This document shows, piece by piece, positions 32,702 to 57,790 of a stretch of DNA of 64,000 bases. Position 1 is the stretch's first letter. Every line of letters begins with the position of its first letter. Position numbers and translations under genes: made by a program. Source of the stretch: Certhia americana (Eukaryota; Chordata; Aves; Passeriformes; Certhiidae); NCBI GenBank assembly GCA_018697195.1, contig JAGMWU010000055.1, forward strand, positions 1-64,000, in the 5' to 3' direction. The notes beneath the pieces are model-generated. The model was not told the DNA's origin, ran no database searches, and was given only the letters and a program-made list of their open reading frames with translations.

Positions 32702-35306
<2,605 letters not shown>

Positions 35307-37256: not shown

Positions 37257-40200
37257 AAGCCCCTTTCCCTTCAATTCCACCCACTTATCCCACCACAGCC
37301 CTGGTGTTTTCCCCCCAGCCCTTTCCTCTCCACATCCCCCTGCCCTCCATGCACGTACCCTCTGGCAGCCCCACGTTCCAGCCAGAGCTCCTCAGAGCAG
37401 CAGCAGCAGCAGCTGAACCTCCTTCCTGTCGAAGGGCAGGAGGCAAGAGCTGAATTCTCAAAGGGGAAGGGTGTGCCGAGGCGATAACCAGAACAAGTGA
37501 GAAACTTGAAGAAAGAGGAGAAACTTGAAGAAACAGGAGGGTTTCTTGGAGGCTCTCAGCTGCTGTCGTTGCTCTTCCCAGGTTGGGACTGGAGCACAAG
37601 GCAGCCACCAGCAGCCCCCATGAGAGGGGAAGGTGGTGACACGGGCAGTGCCTCAGGACACACTGCCACACTGATGTGACACAGCCTTCACAGCAGCTCA
37701 GGAAGCTTCAGGGTTTGATGGCTTTGAGGGGTGAAGTGACAAAGCCAAAGCCTCACAGTGGAGACTGGCACCAGAACTGCTAGATCTGACTGTCCCACAC
37801 CTCTGCTCCCTTAGCCACTTACACACCTGGGAAGAGCAGGAGGGCTGTCCTCCTCTCCAGGTCGTGCCAGCAGTTTCAGGGTTTTTGGCTCAGGACAAGG
37901 TGAGAACCCCTTTGCCTTCCAGCCTCTCCTCATCCTGCTCCTTGCAGCAACTGATGGCTCCAAGCAGGGAGGAGTTTGGGGGGAGGAAGGAAACTCTGCT
38001 CGATCACAGAGCTTTACCCTTGCAGCCACTCTCACCTTTCTGCCTGACCCTGGGACAGGAGGAACACCTGGGGTGGCTCCTCAAGGCAATCCCCCACTCT
38101 CAACCTGCTTCTGAATGGTCAGGAAGGGTGCAGGGAGACTTTTCCCCTTTCCCCTCTACAGAGGGGCTACCAGGGCTCCCCCCCAGTGCTGATCCAGGTT
38201 GTCCCAGTGGGCCCCAGCCCGGTGCTGCTGAGGGGCTCCCGGGAGCTGCTGGGTTTCCAGCAGGGAAGGAGCATGACTGTGGAGGGCCAGAGGCCCCTCA
38301 CTGCCATATGGTTCCCATTAGCAGCCCTGGGAAGGGTTTGTTTACTGCAGGGATCACTGCTCCAGTGCTGGAGGCTTTCCCAAAAGCACGGTGTGGGGGA
38401 TCCAGGCACCTTTCCTCCTCCATCCTCGGAGGATGTGGAGTGTCCCCAGAGCACAGCCAGGCACACCTTGGGCAGGGGACACCTCAGGGAGGCTGTCAGG
38501 CCTTTCCCCCAGGAAATTGTGGGCTGAGCTGATGGCTCTGGGGATGGATATCCCTGAGATCCTATGCAGGATCAGTGAAACCACACACAGAGGACAGCAC
38601 TGACCCTCCAGCTCCATGGCCATCATCCCTCTCAGCTGGCCAGCGTGGGGAGGAGGTGAACAGGATCTGGAAGAGCCTGTCTGCTAAGCCTGGGAATCAC
38701 CCAGCTCCCAAAGCTCAGTTTCTGTAATCTTGGGATCCCACAGTTGACCCAGACCATGAAACAAAGGGTGGTGCAAAACCAGCATCAAACGGGCCAGTCC
38801 AGAGCCAGGGAAGGATGATGGAACGAGCCCAGTGGCCACAGCTCCTGCTTTAGGCATGGAATCCCTTAATTCAGCTTCAGGTCTTGGCTCTTGTATGGCT
38901 TTGAGCCAACCACTTGACCTCTCTGGTGCTGGGCACCCAGGGCAGTCCCTGCTGGCTTGGCACAGCGGGGAGGACTTCAGGGAGGAGGATTTTTGGGGAC
39001 ATTTCTGGGGACACCCCCACCCTGCTCCTGAGATTCCTGGGGAGTGGACCTGACCCTGCCTCACCCCACAGCCAGGAGCCACCTTCCACCAGCCTGCTCC
39101 ACTAATCCCCTTTCCATCCACGTCCTGCCTCTTGAAATGCTGCCAGTGGGCAGGAAATCTGCAGCCGAAACGCTGAGGGATGCTGACAAGGAATAGTTGT
39201 GGGGAGGAACAGGGATGCCTTTGTCAGGGCAACAATGGGGGACCCACAGGAGTGAGGGAGAGCCCGAGGGAAGCCCCTGCTCACCCACTGGCCTCTCACT
39301 TTCATCCCTGCCTCCCCTGAGGAGGAGATGCACAGCTCTGGAAGCTCCAGGGTCCAGGGGACTGGGCTGGTCCCTGCCCCTGCCTCTCACTGAGGGGGTC
39401 CATGGGCCAGAAGGATGCTGCTGGGATTCACCTGCTTTCCAGAAGCAGAAACTGAGGCAGCCCATTCCTGGGATTGTGGCTGTGTTTAATGGCATCCATT
39501 AAAAATCATGATCTCAAGGGATCCTCTGCTCCCTGGGATCTCCTGTCTTGCTGGGAGTTCAGAGAGAGCAGAGAAACACAGCAGAAATCCTGCCAGGAGG
39601 ATGAGAAGAGACTTTTCCAAGCAGAGACAAATTCTCAGTAGTGCCAGACAAAAATTGCAGGTTGAGAGGTTCAGGCTGGACATTAAATAAAAGTGTTTTT
39701 CTGGGAGGAACCTTGGAAGCCCTGCAGAACAGACTAATGAGGTGCAGCATAAACCTGGTACAAACAAGCACAAAAGGCAAACAGCAGCTCATGCTCCTCC
39801 CCTCCCCTTATCAGCTCTTCCCTAATCTCTTCCATAAACCACATTCCACCTGGAAACATCTCCTCCTGGTTTCCTAGACAAATGTACATCCATTTACCAT
39901 TAGACATTAGATCCTCTCCCATCACATATCTGCCTCTCAGTGGGATTCACACAGAGTAACACGTTCAGGAGAAGCAGATTCCTTTTCACCTGTTCTCACG
40001 TGGTGGGTTCTGCTGCTCTGGCAGCTCCACACCTGGGAGATCTCAGGCCTTGGTGTTCTGACACAAAACTCCAACACCCCTCAAGACCTCTGGCCTCATG
40101 TGTCCTTACATCCCTGCTTGCAGAGGAATCCAAGTGTCTTCCTTCCATTTTGCTCTCTTTTCCCTGTCTCCACCTAAAATAATCATTTCCTTGGGGCTCT

Positions 40201-40494
40201 ATCACGAGGCCCTGTTGTTTCAGAAGTCATTTATCATATCCAAGGAAGACACTGAGCCAGCATGACATGATCTGTGTTAAACCCACCCAGCATTTTATTC
40301 TGCTTCCCAACAGCACATCTTTGATTACTCTTCCAGAACCTGTTCTAGGAACCAACCTTTCCTCATACTCCAATTAATGGACCTGTAATTGCCTGTAATT
40401 TCCTCCTTCCTCTAGCACAGCCTCTCAGTGTTACCCTGGCTGATTTCCTCGTGTGGAACATCACCTGTTACTCACCAGATTTTGGACTGGCATT

Positions 40495-40665
40495 GCCTAT
40501 GGTAGAATCCCTAGCCCTGGAGGCTTTAAAGGCCGTGGGGATGGGGCACTTGGGGACATTGTTAAGTGGTGGCCTTGGCAGTGCTGGGGGAATGGTTGGT
40601 GATCATTCTATGATCTTAGAGAACTTTTCCAACCTGAAGGATTCTCTGATTCCAGGGGGTGAGCC
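40495..40665 (+). mobile_element. CR1-like fragment in duplication unit 1
   Basis: GGAGGCTTTAAAGGCCGTGG, ATGGTTGGTGATCATTCTAT and GAACTTTTCCAACCTGAAGG, ending GATTCTCTGATTCC, fits the CR1 tail. The same fragment is seen at 46170-46322. Confidence 0.75.
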
Positions 40666-42589
40666 CATCTCTTGAGTCCTGAGGGACTCCACAAAAAGCT
40701 TTTGCTGTTTCATCACCTGCAGAAGCAGCAGGAGCAGGAGTGAATCCAATTCCAGGCACTCCAAGACACAGCACAAGCTCTTTCCATGGTCCCTGCCTCC
40801 ACACAAGCCCCACAAAAGGTGCTTTTTGCTGTCCAAATGCAGATTGTATAAGAAGAAAACACGACCAAAACCATATTGGTAGTTAGATCTCTCCAAATAT
40901 TCTTTTTGAGCTGCCCTGGCTATTTTCAGCCCTCACCTCTGTCCTCCATTTTAGGATCCAAGGTACCATAGAGCCCAACATAGGATCTGGTTCTCTGAAA
41001 TCCACAAGACTACAGTGAGTGTACTGGGAAAAGTAATCCCTGGAGAGGCACATCAGAGGATGCTGAGGTATCTTGTCACTGAAAACCCCAAGCTGGACAT
41101 ATGGAGAGGGTTATGGGCACACCACAGGAGTCAGAAATATGTCTAAAGTGTGCTTAACACTGATATTGCAGTAATCCTTTTGTCCAGATTTAATATTTTC
41201 CATCCCAGGGCTTTTGCTAAGAGCGAGGCAAGTGCTGCAACACCCCCAGATGGCAGATAAAAATGACTTAACTGGCAGGGGAAAGCAGCTGTGTCTTGGG
41301 GGGACATGGTAGCTGCCTGGCAAAACCCTGTAAGAGCTGAGGGTGGGAGAAAAGGAAAATAAAAACTTCATCACCATCCAGGGCCAGAGGGGTAGTTGAA
41401 GACTCACAGGAGTTACCCACTGAAGGAAACCAGAAGAGGAATTCCCTTCCCTAGTGAGAAATCTCCTGGGATTTTTGCTGACCCAAAAAGGTCAGGAACC
41501 TGGCTTTGAACTGTATTAGAATGAAAATGCATCTGGCCACTTTGCAAAGCCCAAGAGGTTGGTTCTGACAGACCCTCACCTTGGAACTGGGAATTTGCTT
41601 CTTGCAGGGCTCCCATTTAAAAAGGACATTAACACCGGGGCAGTTTCAGACTAAGCTTGGTCGATTGCCCTGCAATTATTTTTGTAATCTACAATAATAA
41701 TGCTGCAGATGTGCTACTCCTGGCCTCAAACACACAACAGCTCAGCTGAGGCACCAGATGTCTTCCCTGTGAGAGCCCTCACACAACGTCTTTGGTGGAC
41801 AAAGACCAATTTTCAAGACTGGATTATCAGGTTTTCTCAAAACTGATACCCACACTATGAAAAAAACTGGTCAAAATTGCTCATAAATGTGATCTGCAAT
41901 GTATTTAGTGTTTGAAAGTGATCCAGGGGGATTTAGACAGTAAGGCTGGCTCAAACCCTAGTGAGTTACAGCACCGGAAGGGGACTGGGCGGACTTGGGC
42001 TTGATTATATTTTTGGGTGGACAGTGGATATAAATAATTTCTTTTTTTTTTTTTTTTTCGGTTACTGGTTGCTCCCCTTCCCGTCGAGACAAAAAAGAAG
42101 AGCTCTCCTTTGTGAAGCACGGGGAGATCCCTGGTGTCAGGATCAGGCTGTCAGAGAAAGGGATTGTAGGGTTATTCAAATGCTCACAGTATGCAACAGC
42201 CTCCCAGGGAAGTGAGTGACTGAAAGACTGTGATGGAAAGGTTTTAAATGCGAGCTGGGATCGAGGCGTAGGAGACACACCAGACCATGGGAATGGAGGC
42301 ATTAACCAAGGGGGATGAGGGAGTGGGATTTCTACACAGGTTTTTCTTCCATACTACTGCTCAATACAACTGGATCGGTCGCCGCACCCCGGCATGGCTG
42401 CAGCACACAACAAAGAGGGACCTGCAGGAGCACACGGGGAGCCCCAACACGCTGCCCACAACCAGCAAGGGCCTGTTGTCGGCGTCCAGGCGCTCGACCG
42501 GGGCTCCCTCGGCCACGGGGAGCTCGCCCCCGGTGCCGGTACCGCCTCCCGGCTGCCGGCAGCCACCGCCCTGCCCCGCCTGCCCCAGG

Positions 42590-43060
42590 CACCAGCAGCG
42601 CCCGGCCGACCCCAGATTGCCACAGAGAACCCGAGAGTCTGCCCCCGAGACCCAAGATCTGCCCCGAGACCCCCCAGGGATCTGCCCCTCGGACCCCCCA
42701 GATCTGCCGCGCACGATCCCCAAATCTGCCCCCCAGAGGGATCCCCCCCAGATATGCAAGAACGATCCCCAGAATCTGACGACCCCGAGATCACCACCAG
42801 ATCGCCACAGCACGCGTATACCCAAGATCTGCCAACCGAGATCCCCACTAGATTGCACCTCGAGAACCCCAAATCTGCCCCAGAGACCCACAGATATGCC
42901 GAGCCCAACCAAAAGATCTGTCCGAGAACCACAGGTCTGCCGAGCACTGATACCTCCAAATCGGCCCCACGAGAACACAGATATGCCCAAAGAGAAAACC
43001 AGATCTGCCCCCGAGAACCCCCCAGATCTGACCACGGAAAACCCCCAGATCTGCGAGCCT
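42590..43060. repeat. Degenerate minisatellite with repeated AGATCTGCC motif, unit 1
   Basis: About 18 imperfect units of 24-30 bp, each near CCCAGATCTGCCCCCGAGAC. The strand asymmetry (C-rich plus strand) leaves many open frames that have no biological meaning. Repeated at 48240-48715. Confidence 0.85.
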
Positions 43061-43319
43061 CCAGCCTGAGCATCGAAACGAACCGAAGCCAGCGAAACCA
43101 GGGTTCCGGCTGAGGGGATGAGCCTCCGGCTTCCCAGGGGCGGTCCTGCCAGCGCCGGCCGCTCCCGGGGTCACCCGCCGTTCTCCATCCCTATACCCTC
43201 TCGCCCAACCGTCGCTGTCCCAGCTCCCCAGCCCTGCGCGGTCGGGAAATCCCCGGTGGGGCCACCTTGGCTCCCCGTTCGGCGGCCGTCATTTGTCTCG
43301 CATGCCGAACCCGAGCCGA

Positions 43320-43620
43320 GCTCACGGGGGGCCCCGAGCGGGGTGTCCGCATCGGCAGGTGTGCCCGGGGCTCCGGTACCCGGGGCTCTGGTACCAGGGG
43401 CTCCGGTACCCGGGGATTCCGGTACCCGTTGGCTAACCGCAGAGGCCGAGGCCCGTGGAGCGGCGCAGATTCCTGCGCTTCCAGCGCCGGCTACGAGCAC
43501 TTTTATCGCTGGGGGCCGCGCGCTTGGCTCTAGGCGTGCGAACCGGTTCCCAGTCCCCGCTCGTACTTTTTTTTTGTGTGGAGCCAACCTCTAACGGCCA
43601 ATCCTCCCCGATCATATCGG
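43320..43620 (-). promoter_or_regulatory. Candidate distal promoter / CpG island (possibly LIMD2)
   Basis: A CpG-rich block. On the minus strand it shows, in order, GGATTGGCC and GGTTGGCTC (CCAAT boxes read from the other strand, about 43582-43605), a TATA-like CGATAAAAG (complement of 43500-43508) about 80 bp further on, and a possible 5' splice site GTGAGC (complement of 43320-43325). This arrangement would suit a first non-coding LIMD2 exon. Inference only; no spliced partner was shown. The block is repeated in unit 2 near 48960-49280. Confidence 0.3.
43360..43432. repeat. Short GC-rich array with GGTACC every 15-20 bp
   Basis: CCGGGGCTCCGGTACC-like unit about four times, inside the CpG-rich block. 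A shorter version is at 49017-49070. Confidence 0.8.
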
Positions 43621-46169
43621 CTCCCAGCTCGATATCCTGCTCGCCAGCAGACCTCCCGGTAACCACAGCGACCGGCCCGGGAGCGACCCTTCCGCTTTCC
43701 GGAACGGGGTTGTGAATTACCCACCGGGAGTTTTTCTCCAGCCTCTCTCCCATGAGCTGGTATCAACAGAGCTTTACACTTGCAGCCACCTTACACATTT
43801 GCCTGAACCTGGGACAGGAAGGAACACCTGGGGTGGTTCCTCAAGGCAATACCCCACTCTCATACCTGCTAGAATGGTCAGGAAGGGTGCAGCGGAGACT
43901 TTCCCCTTTCCCCTCTCCGAGGGCCACCAGGGCTCCCCCCAGTGTGATCCCAGGCGTCCCGTGGGACCAAGCCCGGTGCTGCTGAGAGGGATACCCGGGG
44001 AGCTGATGGGGTTCCAGCAGGGAAGGAGTGTGACTGTGGTGAGGGCCAGAGGCACTCATGCCATTATGGTTCCCATTAGCAGACTGGGAGGGTTGTTTAC
44101 TGCAGGGATCACGCTACAGTGCTTGAGGATTTCCCACAAAAGCACGGTGTGGGGATCCAGGCACCCCTGCTCCCCATCCTCGGAGGTGTGGAGTGTCCCC
44201 AGAGCCAGCCAGGCCACACTGGCAGGGGTGACAACTCAGGGAGGCTGTCAGGCCTTTACAAGGAAATTGTGGGCTGAGTGTGGCTCTGGGGATGGATTCT
44301 CCTGAGATCATATGCAGGTCAGTGAAAACCACACAGGAGGGACACAGCATGAACAGCAGCTCCTAGGCATCATCCCTCTCGATGGCCAGCGTTGGGAGGA
44401 GGTGAACAGGATCTGGAAGAGCCTGCTGCTAAGCTGGGAATCACCAGCTCCAAAGCTCAGTTTCTGTAATCTTGGGGTCCAACGTTGACCAGACCAGAAA
44501 CAAAGGGTGGTGAAAAACCAGCATAAAACGGCCAGTCCAGAGAGGGACAGGATGATGGACGAGCAATGGCCACAGCTCCTGCTTTAGGCATGGAACCTAA
44601 TTCAGCTTCAGGTTCTTGGTCTTGTATGGCTTGAGCCAACCACTGACCTCCTTGGTGCTGGGCACCCAGGGCAGTCCATGCTGATTGGCACAGCGGGGAG
44701 GACTTCAGGGAGGAGCGATTTTTGGGGACATTTCTGGGGAACCCCCACCCTGCCTCTGGAGATCATTGGGGGAGGGGACCTGACCCTGCTACCCCACAGC
44801 CAGGGCCACATTCCCCCATGCCTGCTCCACTATCCACTTTCCATCCACGTCTGCTCTTGAAATGCTTCAGTGGGCAGGAAATCTGCAGCCGAACAGAAAC
44901 GCTGCGGGATGCTGACCAGGAATAGTTGTGGGAGGAACAGGGCTGCCTTTGTCGGGCAACAATGGGGGGCCCACAGGAGTGAGGAGAAGCCCAGAGGGAT
45001 AAGCCTGCTCACCCAATGGCTCTCTTAATCCCTGCCCCTGAGGAGGAGAGACAACGTCTGGAGCACAAGGGTCAGGGGCTGGATGGTCCTGCCCCTGCCT
45101 TCAATGAGGGGGTCCAGGGCCAGAAGGAGCTAATGGGATTCACCTGCTTTACAGAAGGCAGAAAATGAGGCAGCCATTCTGGGATTGTGGCATTGTGTTA
45201 ATGGCACTCCATTAAAAAGCATGATTCTCAAAGGGATCCTCTCCTCCCTGGATCTCCTGTCTTGCTGGCGAGTTCAGAGAGAGCAGGAGAAACCAGCGAA
45301 ATCCGGCCAGGGGTATGAGAGAGACTTTCCAAGCCGAGCAAATTCTCGTAGTGCAGACAAAAATTGCCAGGTTGAGAGGTTCGAGGCTGGACATTAAATA
45401 AAAGTGTTTTCTGGAGGAACCTGGAAAGACCTGCAGAACAGACTAATGGGCGCAGGCATAAAACCTGGTACAAACAAGCACAAAGGCACAACAGGCAGAT
45501 CATGCCTCAACTCCCTTATCAGCTCGCCCTACTCTCTCCATAAACCACATTCAAACTGGAAAACATCTCCTCCTGGTTTCAAGAAAATGAAATCCATTTA
45601 CCATTAGACATTAGAGCCTCTCCAATAACATATCGCCTCTCAGTGGGGATCAAACAGAGTAACACGTTCAGGAGAAGCAGTTCCTTTTCACTCGTTCTCA
45701 GTGGTGGTTCTGCTGCTCTGGCAGCTCACACATGGAGATCTAGGCCTTGGTGTTTGACACAAAAACTCCAGCAAACACTCAAGGACCTCTGGCCTCATTG
45801 TCCTTACATCCCTGCTTTGAGAGGAATCAAAGTGTCTAATTCCAGTTTGTCTCTTTTCTCTGTCTAAACCTAAAAAATCATTGACGTGGTGGTCTATCAG
45901 AGGCCAGTTGTTTAGAAAGTCATTTATCATATCAAGGAGGACACGAGCCGCATGACCATGATCTGTGTTAAACCACCCGCATTTTATTTGATTACCAAAG
46001 CAAATCTGGCATTACTCTTCCAGAACCGTTATAGGAACAACCTTCTCATACTCCAATTAGGACCTGTAATGCTGTAATTTCCGCTTCCTCTAGCACCGCC
46101 TATCAGTGTTACCCTGGATGATTTCCTTGTGGAACATCACATGTTACTCACCAGATTTTGGACTGGCAT

Positions 46170-46322
46170 TGCTATGGTAGAATCCATAGCCCTGGAGGCT
46201 TTAAGGCAGTGGGGATGGGGCACTTGGGGACATTGTTAAGTGGTGGCCTGCGCAGTGTGGGGCATGGTTGGTGATCATTCTATGATCTTAGAGAACTTTT
46301 CAACCTGAAGGTCTCTCGATCC
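46170..46322 (+). mobile_element. CR1-like fragment in duplication unit 2
   Basis: Duplicate of the 40495 fragment, shortened by scattered single-base losses. Not an independent insertion. Confidence 0.7.
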
Positions 46323-48239
46323 AGGGGGTGAGCCCATCTCTGGAGTCATGAGGACCACCAAAAGCTTTTGCTGTTTCATACACTCGTCCGAGAGCAGCAG
46401 GAGCAGGGAAAGCGTAATCCAATTCCAGGCCACTCCAGACCAGGCACAAGCCTTTTCCATGGTCCCTGGGCCTCCCACACGCCCACAAAGGTGCTTTTTG
46501 CTGTTTCCAAATGCAGATTGTATAAAAGAAAACCCGACCAAAAACCATATTGTAGTTAGATCTCGCCATAATATTCTTTTGAGCTGCCCTGGCTATTTTT
46601 CAGCTCACCTCTGTCATCCCTTTTCGGATCCAAGGACCATAGAGCCCGCTCGGATCTGGTTCATCTTGAACTCCACAGACTACATGAGTGTACTGATGGG
46701 AAAGTAATCCATGGAGAGGCACCATAAGAGGATGATGAGGATCTTGTCACTGAAAACCCCAAGTGGACATAGGATGGAGGTATGGGCACACCACGGAGTC
46801 CAGAAATTGTCTAAAGAGTGGCTTAACACTGATATTGCAGTATCACTTTTGTCCAGATTTATATTTTCCATCCCAGGGCTTTTGCTAAGAGCGAGGCAAG
46901 TGCTGCAACACCCCAGATGGCCATAAAAAATGACGAAACTGGCAGGGGGAACGCAGCGGTGTCTTGGGGGGACATGGGTTAGCTGCCTGGCAAAAACCCT
47001 GTAAGAGCTGAGGGTGGTGAGAAAGAGAAAAGGAAAATAAAAACTCATCACCATCCAGGGCCAGAGGGGGTCGTTGAAGACTCACAGGAGTTACCCACTG
47101 AAGGAAACCAGAAGAGGAATTCCCTTCCCTAGTGAGAAATCTCCGGGGATTTTGCTGACCCAAAAGGTCAGGACATTGGCTTGAACTGTATTAGAAGAAT
47201 GAAAAATGAATATGGCCACTTTGCAAAGCAAGAGGTTGGTTTGACAGACCCTCACCTTGGACTGGGATTTGCTTCTTGCAGGGCTACCATTAAAAAGGAC
47301 ATTAACACCGGGCAGTTTGCAGACTAACGCTTGGTCGATTGCCCTGCAATTATTTTGTAATCTACATAATAATGCGCAGATGTGAAATACTGGCAGCAAA
47401 CCACAAACAGCTCAGTGAGGCACCAGATGCTTTCCCTGTGAGAGCCCTACACAAGTTTTGGTGGACAAGACCAAATTTTCAAGAAGGATATCAGGTTTTC
47501 TCAAAAAATGATACCCACATAGAACAAAAAAACTGTCCGAAAATTGACATAAATGTGATCTGCAAGGTATTTAGCTTGGTTTGAAGTGATCAGGGGGGAA
47601 TGCGACAGAGAAGGCTGGCTCAAAAAACAGTTACCGCACGGACTGGGAACTTGGTGAGACTGGGCCTGTCTAAGTTGGGGTTGGCAGTGGATAAATAATT
47701 TCTTTTTTTTTTTGTTTTTTCTGTTCTTGTTTCTTACCCTTCCCTTCGATTGAAAACAGAGCTGCTCTCCTTTGTGAAGCCTGGGAGATCCCTGGCTGTT
47801 CAGGGATCAGCTGTCAGGAGCCCAGGGCATTTGTGTTGTCTATTAAATTCACAGTCATGCAAACAGCCTCCCAGGGAAGTGATTGACAGACCTGTCGTGG
47901 AAAGGTTTAAATGCGAGCTGGACGAGTGGAGCTAGGAGCACACCCATCGGGAGTTGCAGGCATAACCAAGGGGGTGAGGGAGTCGGGGATCAACAGGTTT
48001 TTTTTTCCATCTCTGCTCAATAAAATGGATTGTCCAGCAGCCACCCGGCATGGGACCGCAGCACACAACAAAGAGGACTGCAGCGCCACGGGGAGCCCAA
48101 AACACGCTGCCCAAACCAGCACGGGCCTCGTCTCGGCTCACGCTCCCAGGGCTCCCTCGGCAACGGGGAGCTCGCCCCCGTGCCGGTACCGCTACACGGT
48201 TTCCGGCAGCACCGCCCTTGCCCGCCTGCCCCCGGCAAC

Positions 48240-48715
48240 AGCAGCGCCCGGCGACCCCCAGATCTGCCCCCGAGACCCAGATTGCACCGAGACCCCAGAT
48301 CTGCCCCCGAGACCCCCCAGATCTGCCCACAGAGAACACCAGATCTGCGGCAACGACTCCCCCAAATAATCTGCCCCCCGAAGATACCCCACAGATTGCC
48401 AAGCACGATCCCCCAAATCTGCCCCCGCGATCCCCCCCGATCTGCAAGCCGTTTCCCCCAGATCTGCACCCCCGAGATCCCCCCCCCCACCCCCCAGATC
48501 TGCCCTCGAGACCACCCCAACATCTGACCCGAGACCCCAGTCTTTGCGAGCCCAACCCCCAGATCTGCACGAGCACCCAGACTGCCGAGCACGATCCCCC
48601 AAATTGCCCCCCAGAACCCGCAGATCTGCCCCCGAGACCCCAGATCTCCCCACGAGAAAACCCCCCAGAACTCTGCCCCACGAGAACCCCCCAGATCTGC
48701 GAGCCTCCGCAGAAT
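48240..48715. repeat. Degenerate minisatellite with repeated AGATCTGCC motif, unit 2
   Basis: The same array as 42590-43060. The unit order and number partly differ, which may be sequencing error or array-length polymorphism. Confidence 0.8.
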
Positions 48716-49409
48716 CGAAACGAACCGAGCCCAGCGAAAAGAGGGCCGTTCCCGGGTGCGGGTATGAGCTCCGGTTCCACGGAGGCGGCTCCTGCCCAGC
48801 GCCGCCGCCTCCCTGGGGCTCACCCGCCGCGTTCTCAATACCTCTCAACTCTAGCCCACCGCTCCCGCTGCCCCCAGCTCCCCCAGCCCGCGACGGTCGG
48901 AAATCACCGGTGGGGACAAAACCCTTGGCTCCCCCGTTCGGGGCCGTCATTGGTCTCGCAGCCGCCCCCGAGACGAGCTCACCGCCGAGCTGAGGGTCCG
49001 AGGGAAGGGCTGTGCCAGGGGCTCCGGTACCGGGGCTATGGTACCCGGGGGCTCCGGTACCCGGCGGGCTACGTACACGTGTATCACACAGAGGGCCGCG
49101 GCAGGGGAGAGGAGGCCAGCTTCCTGCCCGCTCCCAGCGCCGGCTACGAGCCCTTTTATCGCGGAAGGGCGTGGGACCGACAGCAGCGATTGGCTCTCGG
49201 CGTAGAACCGGCTTCCAGCCGCTCGTTCCTTTGTGTGGAGCCAACCTCTAACGACAATCATTCCCCCGTCCTCTCGGCTCCAGCCTCTATTCATGCTCGC
49301 CGCAGGCCTCCCCGGTCCCAACAGAGCCGGACCCGGAGCGACCCTTCCGCTTCCGGACGGGGTGTAATACCCCACGGGAATTTCTTCTCAGCCTTCTCCA
49401 GGAGCTGGT

Positions 49410-50265
49410 GTGCAGATTGGCTTCGCTCAAGATTTGGACACAGCTTGGCTCTCTCCGCGGGCGCTCCCCACCCCGGTAAGGGAGCCTGAGATCCAAGGAT
49501 CCATTCACCTCAGCAAAACCACATTCCCCGACCTGCACCTCAAAAAAAGTTTGCATAGGAAGCGATCTTATCAGGCAGCAGCAGGAAAGGATTACAGTGC
49601 TCCCCCATCCTCACCCTCCAGAAAGGGCAAAACTGAGCTGTGCTGGGTTCGGACAAATCCAGGGTTTATTTTGGAGCGGGGTGTGCAAGGTGAGAGGTGG
49701 GCGGGTCCCAGGGGACGAGCCAAAAAGCAATGATGGTCTATTAATGCCGCTTCCCCTGGTGTTTGGAGGGCTGCGGATTTCCCCAGGAACAGGCAAAAAA
49801 ACAATCAGGAAAAATATAAAGATTACTACCTTAAAACGAAGGTGGTTTCATGCCAGCCAAGGAAGCCAGAAGGCAATAAGCAAGAAAGGGCAGACAGTAA
49901 CCGTAGCTCTGAGACTTTACCTTAAGTTCTAAAGCCCTCCAATGGTGAAATGTGGAGAAAATATACAATGGGAGCCTAGGAAATATCTTTGAAAATGATG
50001 ATGCAGGAACAAATACTCAGGAAACACAGTGTGGTGCCACTGCAGGCCAAATGATGGAGGGAGGTGACCAAAGCCGAGCCAGCTGCAGACAGGTGTTCTG
50101 TGTGCAGTTTGCTGTAAGTCCTGTACAAAAATGACATGAGTGAGGACATTCAAAGGAGTTTCACGGACAGGGAGACAGCAGTGCTGTGATCACCCACCCT
50201 CTGACATGTGCCAGTGCACAAAAGAGGTCTGTGCAAAACAGGGATCACTGCCATCCAGGGCAAAC
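49410..50265. other. Unique sequence between the duplication and the satellite block
   Basis: About 850 bp with no recognisable exon, repeat or RNA gene. It separates duplication unit 2 from the GACACGGACATG-type array. Confidence 0.5.
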
Positions 50266-50284
50266 AATGGGAACTGCCTCCAGA

Positions 50285-50900
50285 GCGGAGAAAAGACACG
50301 GACAGGGGACACATGGACACAGGCAGACATGGGACACCACGGCATGGACACGGACATGGACACGACATGGACACGGACACCGACACGGACATGGACACAG
50401 ACATCGGACATACAGGATATGGAAACGGGACATTGGACACGGACATGGACACAGGGACATGGACACAGACACGTCAGGACACGGACACACGCACGGACAC
50501 GGACACACGGGATCAGAACATGAAATCATGGAACAGACATGGAAATGGACACAGACCTTGGACACGGCCACACAGACACGGGACACGGACAACGGACTAA
50601 GACACTATGAACATGGACACAGCCATGGCATGGACACAGACATGCACACCACGGACATGGGACTACAGACATGGACATATGGACATGGACACACAGGCAT
50701 GGACACACGGACACGGACACAGGGACACAGACATGGATACAGACACAACCCAGAAGACACATGGGATCACAAACACAGACACGAACACAGGCACAGGGAC
50801 ATTACAGACATGGACACAGACAGGGACGGACCACACACAGACACAAACACACAAACACAGATGGGGACCCACACGCACAGCACACTAGACACGACACACA
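50285..50900. repeat. Minisatellite of GGACAC/GGACATG hexamer-dodecamer units
   Basis: Dozens of copies of GGACAC, GGACATGGACAC and related words, e.g. ACACGACATGGACACGGACA, with increasing drift toward ACAC at its 3' end. All six frames stay largely open because of the six-base period. Confidence 0.92.
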
Positions 50901-51058
50901 CACAGAACAATACAGGACACACAGACCCGGATACAGATACACACACACACACAGACACACACAACACAAAGACACAAAGACACACAGAAACCCACACACC
51001 CAATACACGGATACAGAACAGACAACACAACACACACACCACACACACACACACGGGG
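50860..51058. repeat. (AC)n-rich microsatellite
   Basis: ACACACAC runs interrupted by ACAGACACA and ACAAACACA. It continues the preceding array after a gradual change of unit. Confidence 0.88.
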
Positions 51059-51384
51059 TGTGCACAGGGAGCCGAGGGTTGCAGAGTTGGGGTGCAGAGG
51101 GCAGAGAACGGCACCGCACCCGCAGCCTCCCCTGCTGTCCCTGCTCAAAGCTCCCAGTATTGGGGAAGGCTGGCGTTCCGAACGGACCTCTCCATCCTCG
51201 GGCTGTAGCCAATCCTGGCACACAGAATCCGCTTGTATGGCAGCTCAGGAATGATCCCAAATGTCAGAGTTTCAGCAACACGACACGGAACCATCGGCGA
51301 GGCTTGCTATGATGGGGAGCTGCACTGTACCTTGTGGCCGGGGCTCACACGTCAGTCCTTTCATCACCGCCTTACTCCACCAAC

Positions 51385-52285
51385 GGGACAACATGTACAC
51401 ACGTGTACACACGTACACACCATAACACAACCATACACAATGCAACCCATTGTACACACTGGACAAACATGTACACACACGTACACCACAAAGACACACA
51501 CTTACACACATACACACGTGTACAACACCTACCCCACATACACACACGTACACAACATGTACAACAGTGTACCACACAAGGACACACACATAACACACAC
51601 ATACACGTGTACAACAACTTACACACCACCAGGTTAACACACATGTACACACACATACACAGTGTACAACACACATACAACCACGTAACACACACATACA
51701 CACACGTTAAACACAGGTACACACGCACCACACACATGTACACACACCTACACATACATGGACCACCCGTACACACGTGTTCACACATGACACACATGGA
51801 CACAATGATCCACACGTACACACACATAACAGTAACACACATCCACACCCGTACACACAACGTACACACCATGTGACAACATGTACAACGCACAACACGT
51901 GTACACAACAATACACATTACACAACACATACACACACATACACACATGCGCACACAAATGTACCACATGCACACGTTAACACGTGTGTACAACATGTAC
52001 ACACAATTACACGTAACACATGTACACAGTACACAATGTACACACATACACACATGTACACACATGTACACACGTACACACACGCGCACACACATGTACA
52101 CACATGCGCACACATGTACACACACGTGTACACGTACACACACGTGTATAGATGCACGTACACACATGTTAACATACATGTACAAACATACGTGTATAGA
52201 TACACGTACACACGCACGCACACACACATGTACACACACATGTACACACACATGTACACGTACACACACACACACGTGCCCACGC
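51385..52285. repeat. Alternating purine-pyrimidine array of TACACACATG / TACACACGTG units
   Basis: About 900 bp of GTACACAC, ATGTACAC, ACGTACAC and GCGCACAC words. Long parts alternate strictly purine-pyrimidine, a composition that favours left-handed DNA. It abuts the RNF113 CpG-rich promoter. Confidence 0.92.
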
Positions 52286-52289
52286 CACA

Positions 52290-52693
52290 CAGGGCATGGC
52301 CGGTGCCGGGGGTCCCGGGGTCGCAGGAACCCAGCGGCGTCCCCGTTGCCTTGGAAACCCTCCGGGCCTGCGGGAGGCGGGGAAGGGCGGAACCGCCCCT
52401 TGCCGTGCACAGCGGGTGCGGGAAGGAGCGGCGGGGCCGGAGAGCGCAGGGAGGAAGCAGAATCGAGGACGGGGGAATGGAGGATCGGGAATCTGGATCG
52501 GGCACGGGGACAGGCTCGGGACCCCCGGGACCCCCGGGACCCCCGGGACCCCCGGAACCCCCGGGACCCCCGGGACCCCCGGGACCCCCGGCCCCGCCTG
52601 GGGGCGCTGAGTCCTCCCGGCCCGCAGGGGGCGCTGCCCTCGGCGGCCGAGGCGGAGCCGCTCTATCCATCGCCGCGGTATCGGTGGCACAAG
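52290..52693 (+). promoter_or_regulatory. RNF113 CpG-rich promoter and 5'UTR (inferred)
   Basis: A GC- and CpG-rich stretch between the alternating repeat and the start codon. It contains GCGGGGCCGG and GAGGCGGAGCC (GC-box-like) words and the 9-bp array. No TATA box is obvious. Confidence 0.5.
52516..52592. repeat. GGGACCCCC nonamer array upstream of RNF113
   Basis: About eight tandem 9-bp units, one changed to GGAACCCCC, 100 bp before the RNF113 start codon. The minus strand is a G-run series (GGGGGTCCC). Confidence 0.93.

Positions 52694-57790
<5,097 letters not shown>

Follow-up and report, generated by a model that had tools for sequence, protein, structure and literature searches.

The paired units between LIMD2 and RNF113A are very probably a false duplication and not a real feature. 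They are best explained as an assembly artefact (probability about 0.94), in which a gap was extended from both sides by raw reads and the overlap between the two extensions was missed. The window analysed here covers the opening 64 kb of contig C55 (347,920 bases), taken from an assembly of 1.067 Gb in 652 contigs, and it contains no N. The coordinates of its features are collected in Table 1.

Table 1. Features of the window that bear on the paired units.
Feature	Position	Strand	Basis or remark
LIMD2 coding exon, outside the duplicated units	33265..33426	-	PDB 2lzu LIMD2, E 1.2e-22; Pfam LIM
Unit 1, accurate part: end of the clean left contig	38003..41854	+	end uncertain, 41787-41932; 12.3% difference from unit 2
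Unit 1, raw part: presumed left extension into the gap; noisy CpG island copy with minisatellite	41855..43761	+	22.1% difference
Junction: end of one raw piece abutting the start of the next, without N	43761..43762	.	
Unit 2: raw, very probably false second copy of 38003-43761	43762..49409	+	alignment, difference spectrum
Raw stretch continued into single-copy sequence	49410..52035	+	observed at 51391-52035, probable at 49410-51390
Alternating purine-pyrimidine array, right border of the raw stretch	51391..52285	.	noisy to about 52036, then clean
RNF113A first coding exon, clean	52694..52795	+	predicted from an open frame

Gene setting of the paired units

The gene order across the window was a MAP3K2/3-type kinase (+), LIMD2 (-), RNF113A (+) and STRADA (-), with the unit 1/unit 2 pair lying between LIMD2 and RNF113A. 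Pieces of LIMD2 were found at 32.7-35.3 kb. The kinase at 19.4 kb matched MAP3K2 of PDB, with Pfam Pkinase below its cut-off, and gene order suggests that this kinase is MAP3K3. The open frame at 52694-52795 resembles the RNF113A protein and is presumably its start, and later exons matched RNF113A of PDB. The RNF113A pieces occupied a number of different reading frames spread across about 5 kb (53.2-57.8 kb), and the gene is therefore interrupted by introns here. A clean CGGGACCCC array (52517-52591; 8.3 copies, 96% match) lay roughly 100 bases before the presumed start codon of RNF113A.

Outside islands the window was CpG-depleted, which together with the gene content and the genome size of 1.067 Gb makes a bird likely. 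No coding exon was recognised inside the duplicated units when open frames of at least 40 amino acids were judged by eye and LIMD2 words were looked for. Pfam returned nothing for four of the eight exons tried, Rfam returned nothing at the gathering threshold, and the tail words of avian CR1 were not found.

Differences between the units have the character of sequencing noise

The best local alignment paired 38003-43761 with 43762-49409 over 6030 columns, with 5087 identities and 290 mismatches, and relative to unit 1, unit 2 had 271 inserted and 382 deleted bases. BLAST self-comparison of the window reported 38006-43761 and 43766-49409 as one match (83.4% identity, E = 0), the strongest self-match among those listed. 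Within the pair, the left contig is repeated by 43762-47518 and the segment 41855-43761 by 47519-49409; the left part of unit 2 was 87.7% identical to unit 1. An earlier sequence-only reading had described the units as colinear from end to end with a steadily falling offset, and the alignment agreed on both points, the offset declining from 5759 to 5648. The direct junction that it had reported, GAGCTGG followed at once by TATCAACAG, is present where the units meet. Its claim of frequent single-base losses in unit 2 was correct (294 of 329 deletion runs were of one base), but it had passed over 204 insertion runs, 163 of them of one base.

The check that the same reading had proposed, setting indels against transitions in the aligned units, gave 653 indel bases and 46 transitions, the other 244 mismatches being transversions. 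A↔C (169) and G↔T (41) changes together made up 210 of the 290 mismatches. C>A was the commonest single change (109/290), in line with the CC-to-AA type changes noted earlier. In the first 3852 bases the bias was strongly tied to one strand: C>A occurred 73 times vs 3 for G>T (P = 3e-17), T>A 10 times vs 0 for A>T, and C was lost at 8.6% vs 2.3% for G. A>C and T>G were balanced there (18 to 16), as were transitions.

In the left part, 123 bases were inserted and 217 deleted in unit 2, and this part had 0.076 indel events and 0.032 transversions per base. Deletions were barely tied to homopolymer length (per base 5.3, 5.7, 6.4 and 4.5% for run lengths 1 to 4; 10/110 in runs of 5). Indels had been described as evenly spread, and their events were indeed spaced more regularly than chance would give (variance/mean of 0.70 in bins of 75 columns across the first 3975 alignment columns). 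The CpG count rose from 22 in unit 1 to 62 in unit 2, and the observed/expected ratio from 0.086 to 0.259; a simulation in which unit 1 received the measured noise gave a ratio of 0.250 (sd 0.025).

Decay of methylated CpG would lower the CpG count, opposite to the gain seen in unit 2. Such strong strand bias is likewise unexpected from germline mutation of double-stranded DNA, and a read of one strand can give it. The transition excess, strand symmetry and predominance of substitutions over indels that mark a diverged tandem duplication were all absent. Given the few transitions, the C>A strand bias, the even indels and a CpG gain as simulated, the differences between unit 1 and unit 2 are sequencing noise without evolutionary origin.

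The noise begins inside unit 1

The difference rate between the units changed at unit-1 position 41855 (41787-41932 within 2 log units), rising from 12.3% to 22.1%, with a log-likelihood ratio of 48 vs at most 10.4 in 200 shuffles. The ratio of C>A to A>C was 73:18 to the left of this position and 36:42 to the right. A model with noise in unit 2 alone reproduced the 12.3% rate of the left part. The right part was then simulated with noise parameters estimated from the left part. With only unit 2 noisy, the simulation gave 6 A>C changes and 10 gained C; with both copies noisy on opposite strands, 7 and 19; and with same-strand noise in both copies, 32 and 43. The observed counts were 42 and 74, and G>T (13 against 7) and lost G (39 against 23) lay above the same-strand model. 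Because the observed counts best matched the simulation with two noisy copies on the same strand, the final 1.9 kb of unit 1 is also raw, on the same strand as unit 2 and somewhat noisier than the model. Noise had earlier been assigned to unit 2 only; unit 2 is raw as claimed, but so is unit 1 from about 41855 to 43761.

The changepoint for A>C alone fell later, at 42587, and noise thus sets in less abruptly in unit 1 than the changepoint for all differences implies. The error types of the unit 1 tail and of the matching part of unit 2 were not exchangeable (P = 0.02), which mildly favours two different reads for the raw pieces; the two halves of the left part of unit 2 did not differ in error types (P = 0.90).

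The noise ends inside an array beyond unit 2

In an alternating purine-pyrimidine array, a one-base indel causes one phase break and a transversion causes two. The array contained 55 single and 23 double breaks in the 651 bases of 51391-52041 (0.084 and 0.035 per base), rates close to those of indel events and transversions in the left part of unit 2, and 2 single and 4 double breaks in the 244 bases of 52042-52285; in total, 101 phase breaks were followed by 10. The changepoint was placed at 52036 (51879-52051), with a log-likelihood ratio of 13.5 vs at most 9.2 in 500 shuffles. As the phase breaks drop there, the raw stretch ends inside the array, some 2.6 kb downstream of where unit 2 ends. 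The extent of noise given by the sequence-only reading was thus right within unit 2 and wrong at its end, which lies near 52036 and not at 49409. The clean part of the array (52036-52285, about 250 bases), between LIMD2 and RNF113A, is presumably Z-DNA-type sequence.

Noise probably covers 49410-51390 as well, judging from its position, from impure arrays starting at 50.3 kb and, weakly, from a k-mer classifier of noisy and clean blocks (AUC 0.97 on the 55 blocks of the window vs their simulated noisy versions). The classifier called the left part of unit 1 clean, gave the opening block of unit 2 no more than a weak noise score and rated 49410-50290 as noise-like. It also called the clean RNF113A promoter region (52290-53200) noisy; CpG islands confound it, and we therefore gave it little weight for 49410-50290.

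Similar self-overlaps lie elsewhere in the contig

We compared 264 kb of C55, including the window, directly with itself; this sequence holds seven N runs of 25,206 bases in all. Among the best 25 of the 53 matches obtained, the focal pair ranked first. Next in rank was an indel-rich match of about 9 kb in three pieces (196171-205243 / 205693-214944), which straddles a run of 100 N, a usual gap placeholder, at 205246. In this second case A↔C and G↔T accounted for 295 of 470 mismatches and transitions for 94; G↔T alone numbered 224, an excess consistent with a read from the opposite strand. The third case (83317-84161 / 86430-87330, about 0.9 kb), likewise rich in indels, lies across a 2263-N run at 84162, and 89 of its 100 mismatches were A↔C or G↔T, with 70 C>A and 6 transitions.

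At the five other N runs, no flank-to-flank match was found at E 1e-10 within up to 12 kb on each side (7.7 kb to the right of the last). The remaining matches among the best 25 of 53 were mostly local arrays, and some of them, such as 99159-99867, were poor in indels. In the local repeats at 193804-194342 and 235513-235981, gap bases at least equalled mismatches between the copies, and these are possibly further raw stretches. One N run, at 148484-171079, spans 22.6 kb, and some N runs in C55 may be other than assembly gaps. Whole-genome searches with 43400-44200 and with 41855-43761 returned both copies described here and, apart from these, only short matches to an array in contig C21.

With three cases in 264 kb of C55, a span that includes 25 kb of N, and with two of these cases lying across N runs, raw-read overlaps could be systematic across the 1.07-Gb assembly, a suggestion that we regard as tentative and somewhat doubtful. 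Should C55 be representative, such overlaps would number in the thousands and the assembly would be inflated with false duplications around gaps. If true, the overlaps could be found without reads, by looking for A↔C/G↔T changes with a strand bias and for interruptions of purine-pyrimidine phase.

Gap extension from both sides is the probable origin of the pair

We propose that a hard-to-assemble stretch, comprising a CpG island with a minisatellite, hexamer arrays and the alternating purine-pyrimidine array, would have opened a gap, with the clean left contig stopping near 41855 and its clean counterpart on the right starting near 52036. Raw long-read sequence would have been added to both contig ends. 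The left extension would be 1.9 kb long, reaching 43761, and the right extension about 8.3 kb (43762 to about 52035), spanning the whole gap of about 4.5 kb (approximately 47519-52035 in unit-2 coordinates) and overrunning the left contig by 3.85 kb. The 5.7-kb overlap would then have been missed and the two pieces placed end to end. The scheme presumes a single genomic copy, a given kind of reads and order of steps, and one read per piece.

Two raw pieces do meet between clean contig ends, from about 41855 to about 52036, and the overlap between them stands unmerged. The observed error spectrum and strand bias, together with two further self-overlaps across N in C55, support the earlier proposal of a gap filled with unpolished long-read sequence that overlaps the flank; the borders of the noise were likewise observed. 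Several findings count against the artefact: the focal junction has no N placeholder, unlike the second and third cases; both raw pieces are on the same strand, as one read through a real duplication would give; five of the seven N runs in C55 have no such overlap; and published raw PacBio reads show neither the excess of deletions (217 to 123) nor so strong a rise of A↔C and G↔T changes.

The first two of these would suit a genuine tandem duplication of 5.76 kb that arose very recently, with a single raw read running through it and filling 41855-52036; the noise would then be artefactual and the duplication real. Through 12% noise, moreover, a nearly identical copy is indistinguishable from a single copy. 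We nevertheless consider this improbable, since the error types of the unit 1 tail and unit 2 were not exchangeable, in contrast to the control within unit 2, the clean left contig crosses the supposed boundary at 38003 without any sign of a break and ends at 41855, and similar overlaps occur across N runs elsewhere in C55. An old, diverged tandem duplication would account for two colinear copies at 83% identity, yet it is extremely improbable. The sequence-only reading had argued against an old duplication, and the spectrum contradicts it: only 46 of 290 mismatches are transitions, indels outnumber mismatches, the strand bias is strong and the supposedly diverged copy gained CpG; in addition, the noise passes the unit end at 49409 and stops in an unrelated array. 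A strand-biased biological C>A mutation process on one copy would fit the C>A bias on one strand and is hardly credible, because 7.6 indel events per 100 bases and noise in the unit 1 tail and in the array to 52036 would be unexpected and the second C55 case has the complementary bias (G↔T 224/470).

We also considered a missed hairpin adapter but rejected it, as the copies here are direct and such an adapter would yield an inverted one.

The bases at about 41.9-52.0 kb are unreliable in both copies, and neither copy of the CpG island in the raw part of unit 1 is accurate. The unreliable bases probably include the island upstream of LIMD2. The CpG island, or any annotation between 38 and 52 kb, should not be counted as duplicated or fast-evolving. 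Strand-biased C>A changes, CpG gain and array phase breaks allow such errors to be recognised and bounded from the assembly alone.

Comparison with known systems

In the passages of the two error-profile studies cited here (PMC7671305, PMC5553090), insertions outnumber deletions in raw PacBio reads, A↔C and G↔T changes are only slightly raised and transitions are not, and total error is near 13%; Nanopore errors are mainly transitions, and in one of the two studies deletions exceed insertions. The focal pair resembles raw PacBio (CLR) noise in its raised A↔C and G↔T changes (210/290; criterion of PMC7671305), in transitions that are not raised and in a total error near 13%. It differs in that deletions exceed insertions (217 vs 123), which is nearer to Nanopore, and in an A↔C excess far stronger than the slight published one. 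Homopolymer dependence leaves the platform unsettled because, in the same passages, the two studies disagree on it. The platform is thus uncertain: the substitutions are PacBio-like, the deletion excess is not, and neither PacBio nor Nanopore fits fully.

The PBJelly authors, in the part of their paper relevant here, describe overfilled gaps, where sequence is extended from each side yet no overlap between the two extensions can be identified (PMC3504050). According to the corresponding passages of later reports, a bird-of-paradise assembly had 236 overfilled gaps, with sequence added by extension and filling averaging 58% GC (PMC7757076), and in a fish assembly whose gaps were filled from error-corrected Nanopore reads there were 28,377 and the genome was inflated (PMC9635638). 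The relevant section of a gap-filler benchmark gives only about 88% identity to the truth for sequence inserted by some fillers (PMC8848313). Ko et al. 2022, in the portion cited, list incorrect gap filling among the causes of false duplications (PMC9516828). The homotype false duplication described there differs in being defined from reads, by a very low depth over the false copy and a lack of supported single-copy k-mers in it; the likeness lies in an error-bearing false copy beside the true one. The focal pair differs from a PBJelly overfilled gap in having no N at its junction, and the gap-filling program used here may be another; the passages on overfilled gaps do not state that N always remains. 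It shares with the overfilled gap the extension of both contig ends, the missed overlap and the excess sequence (PMC3504050, PMC7757076, PMC9635638).
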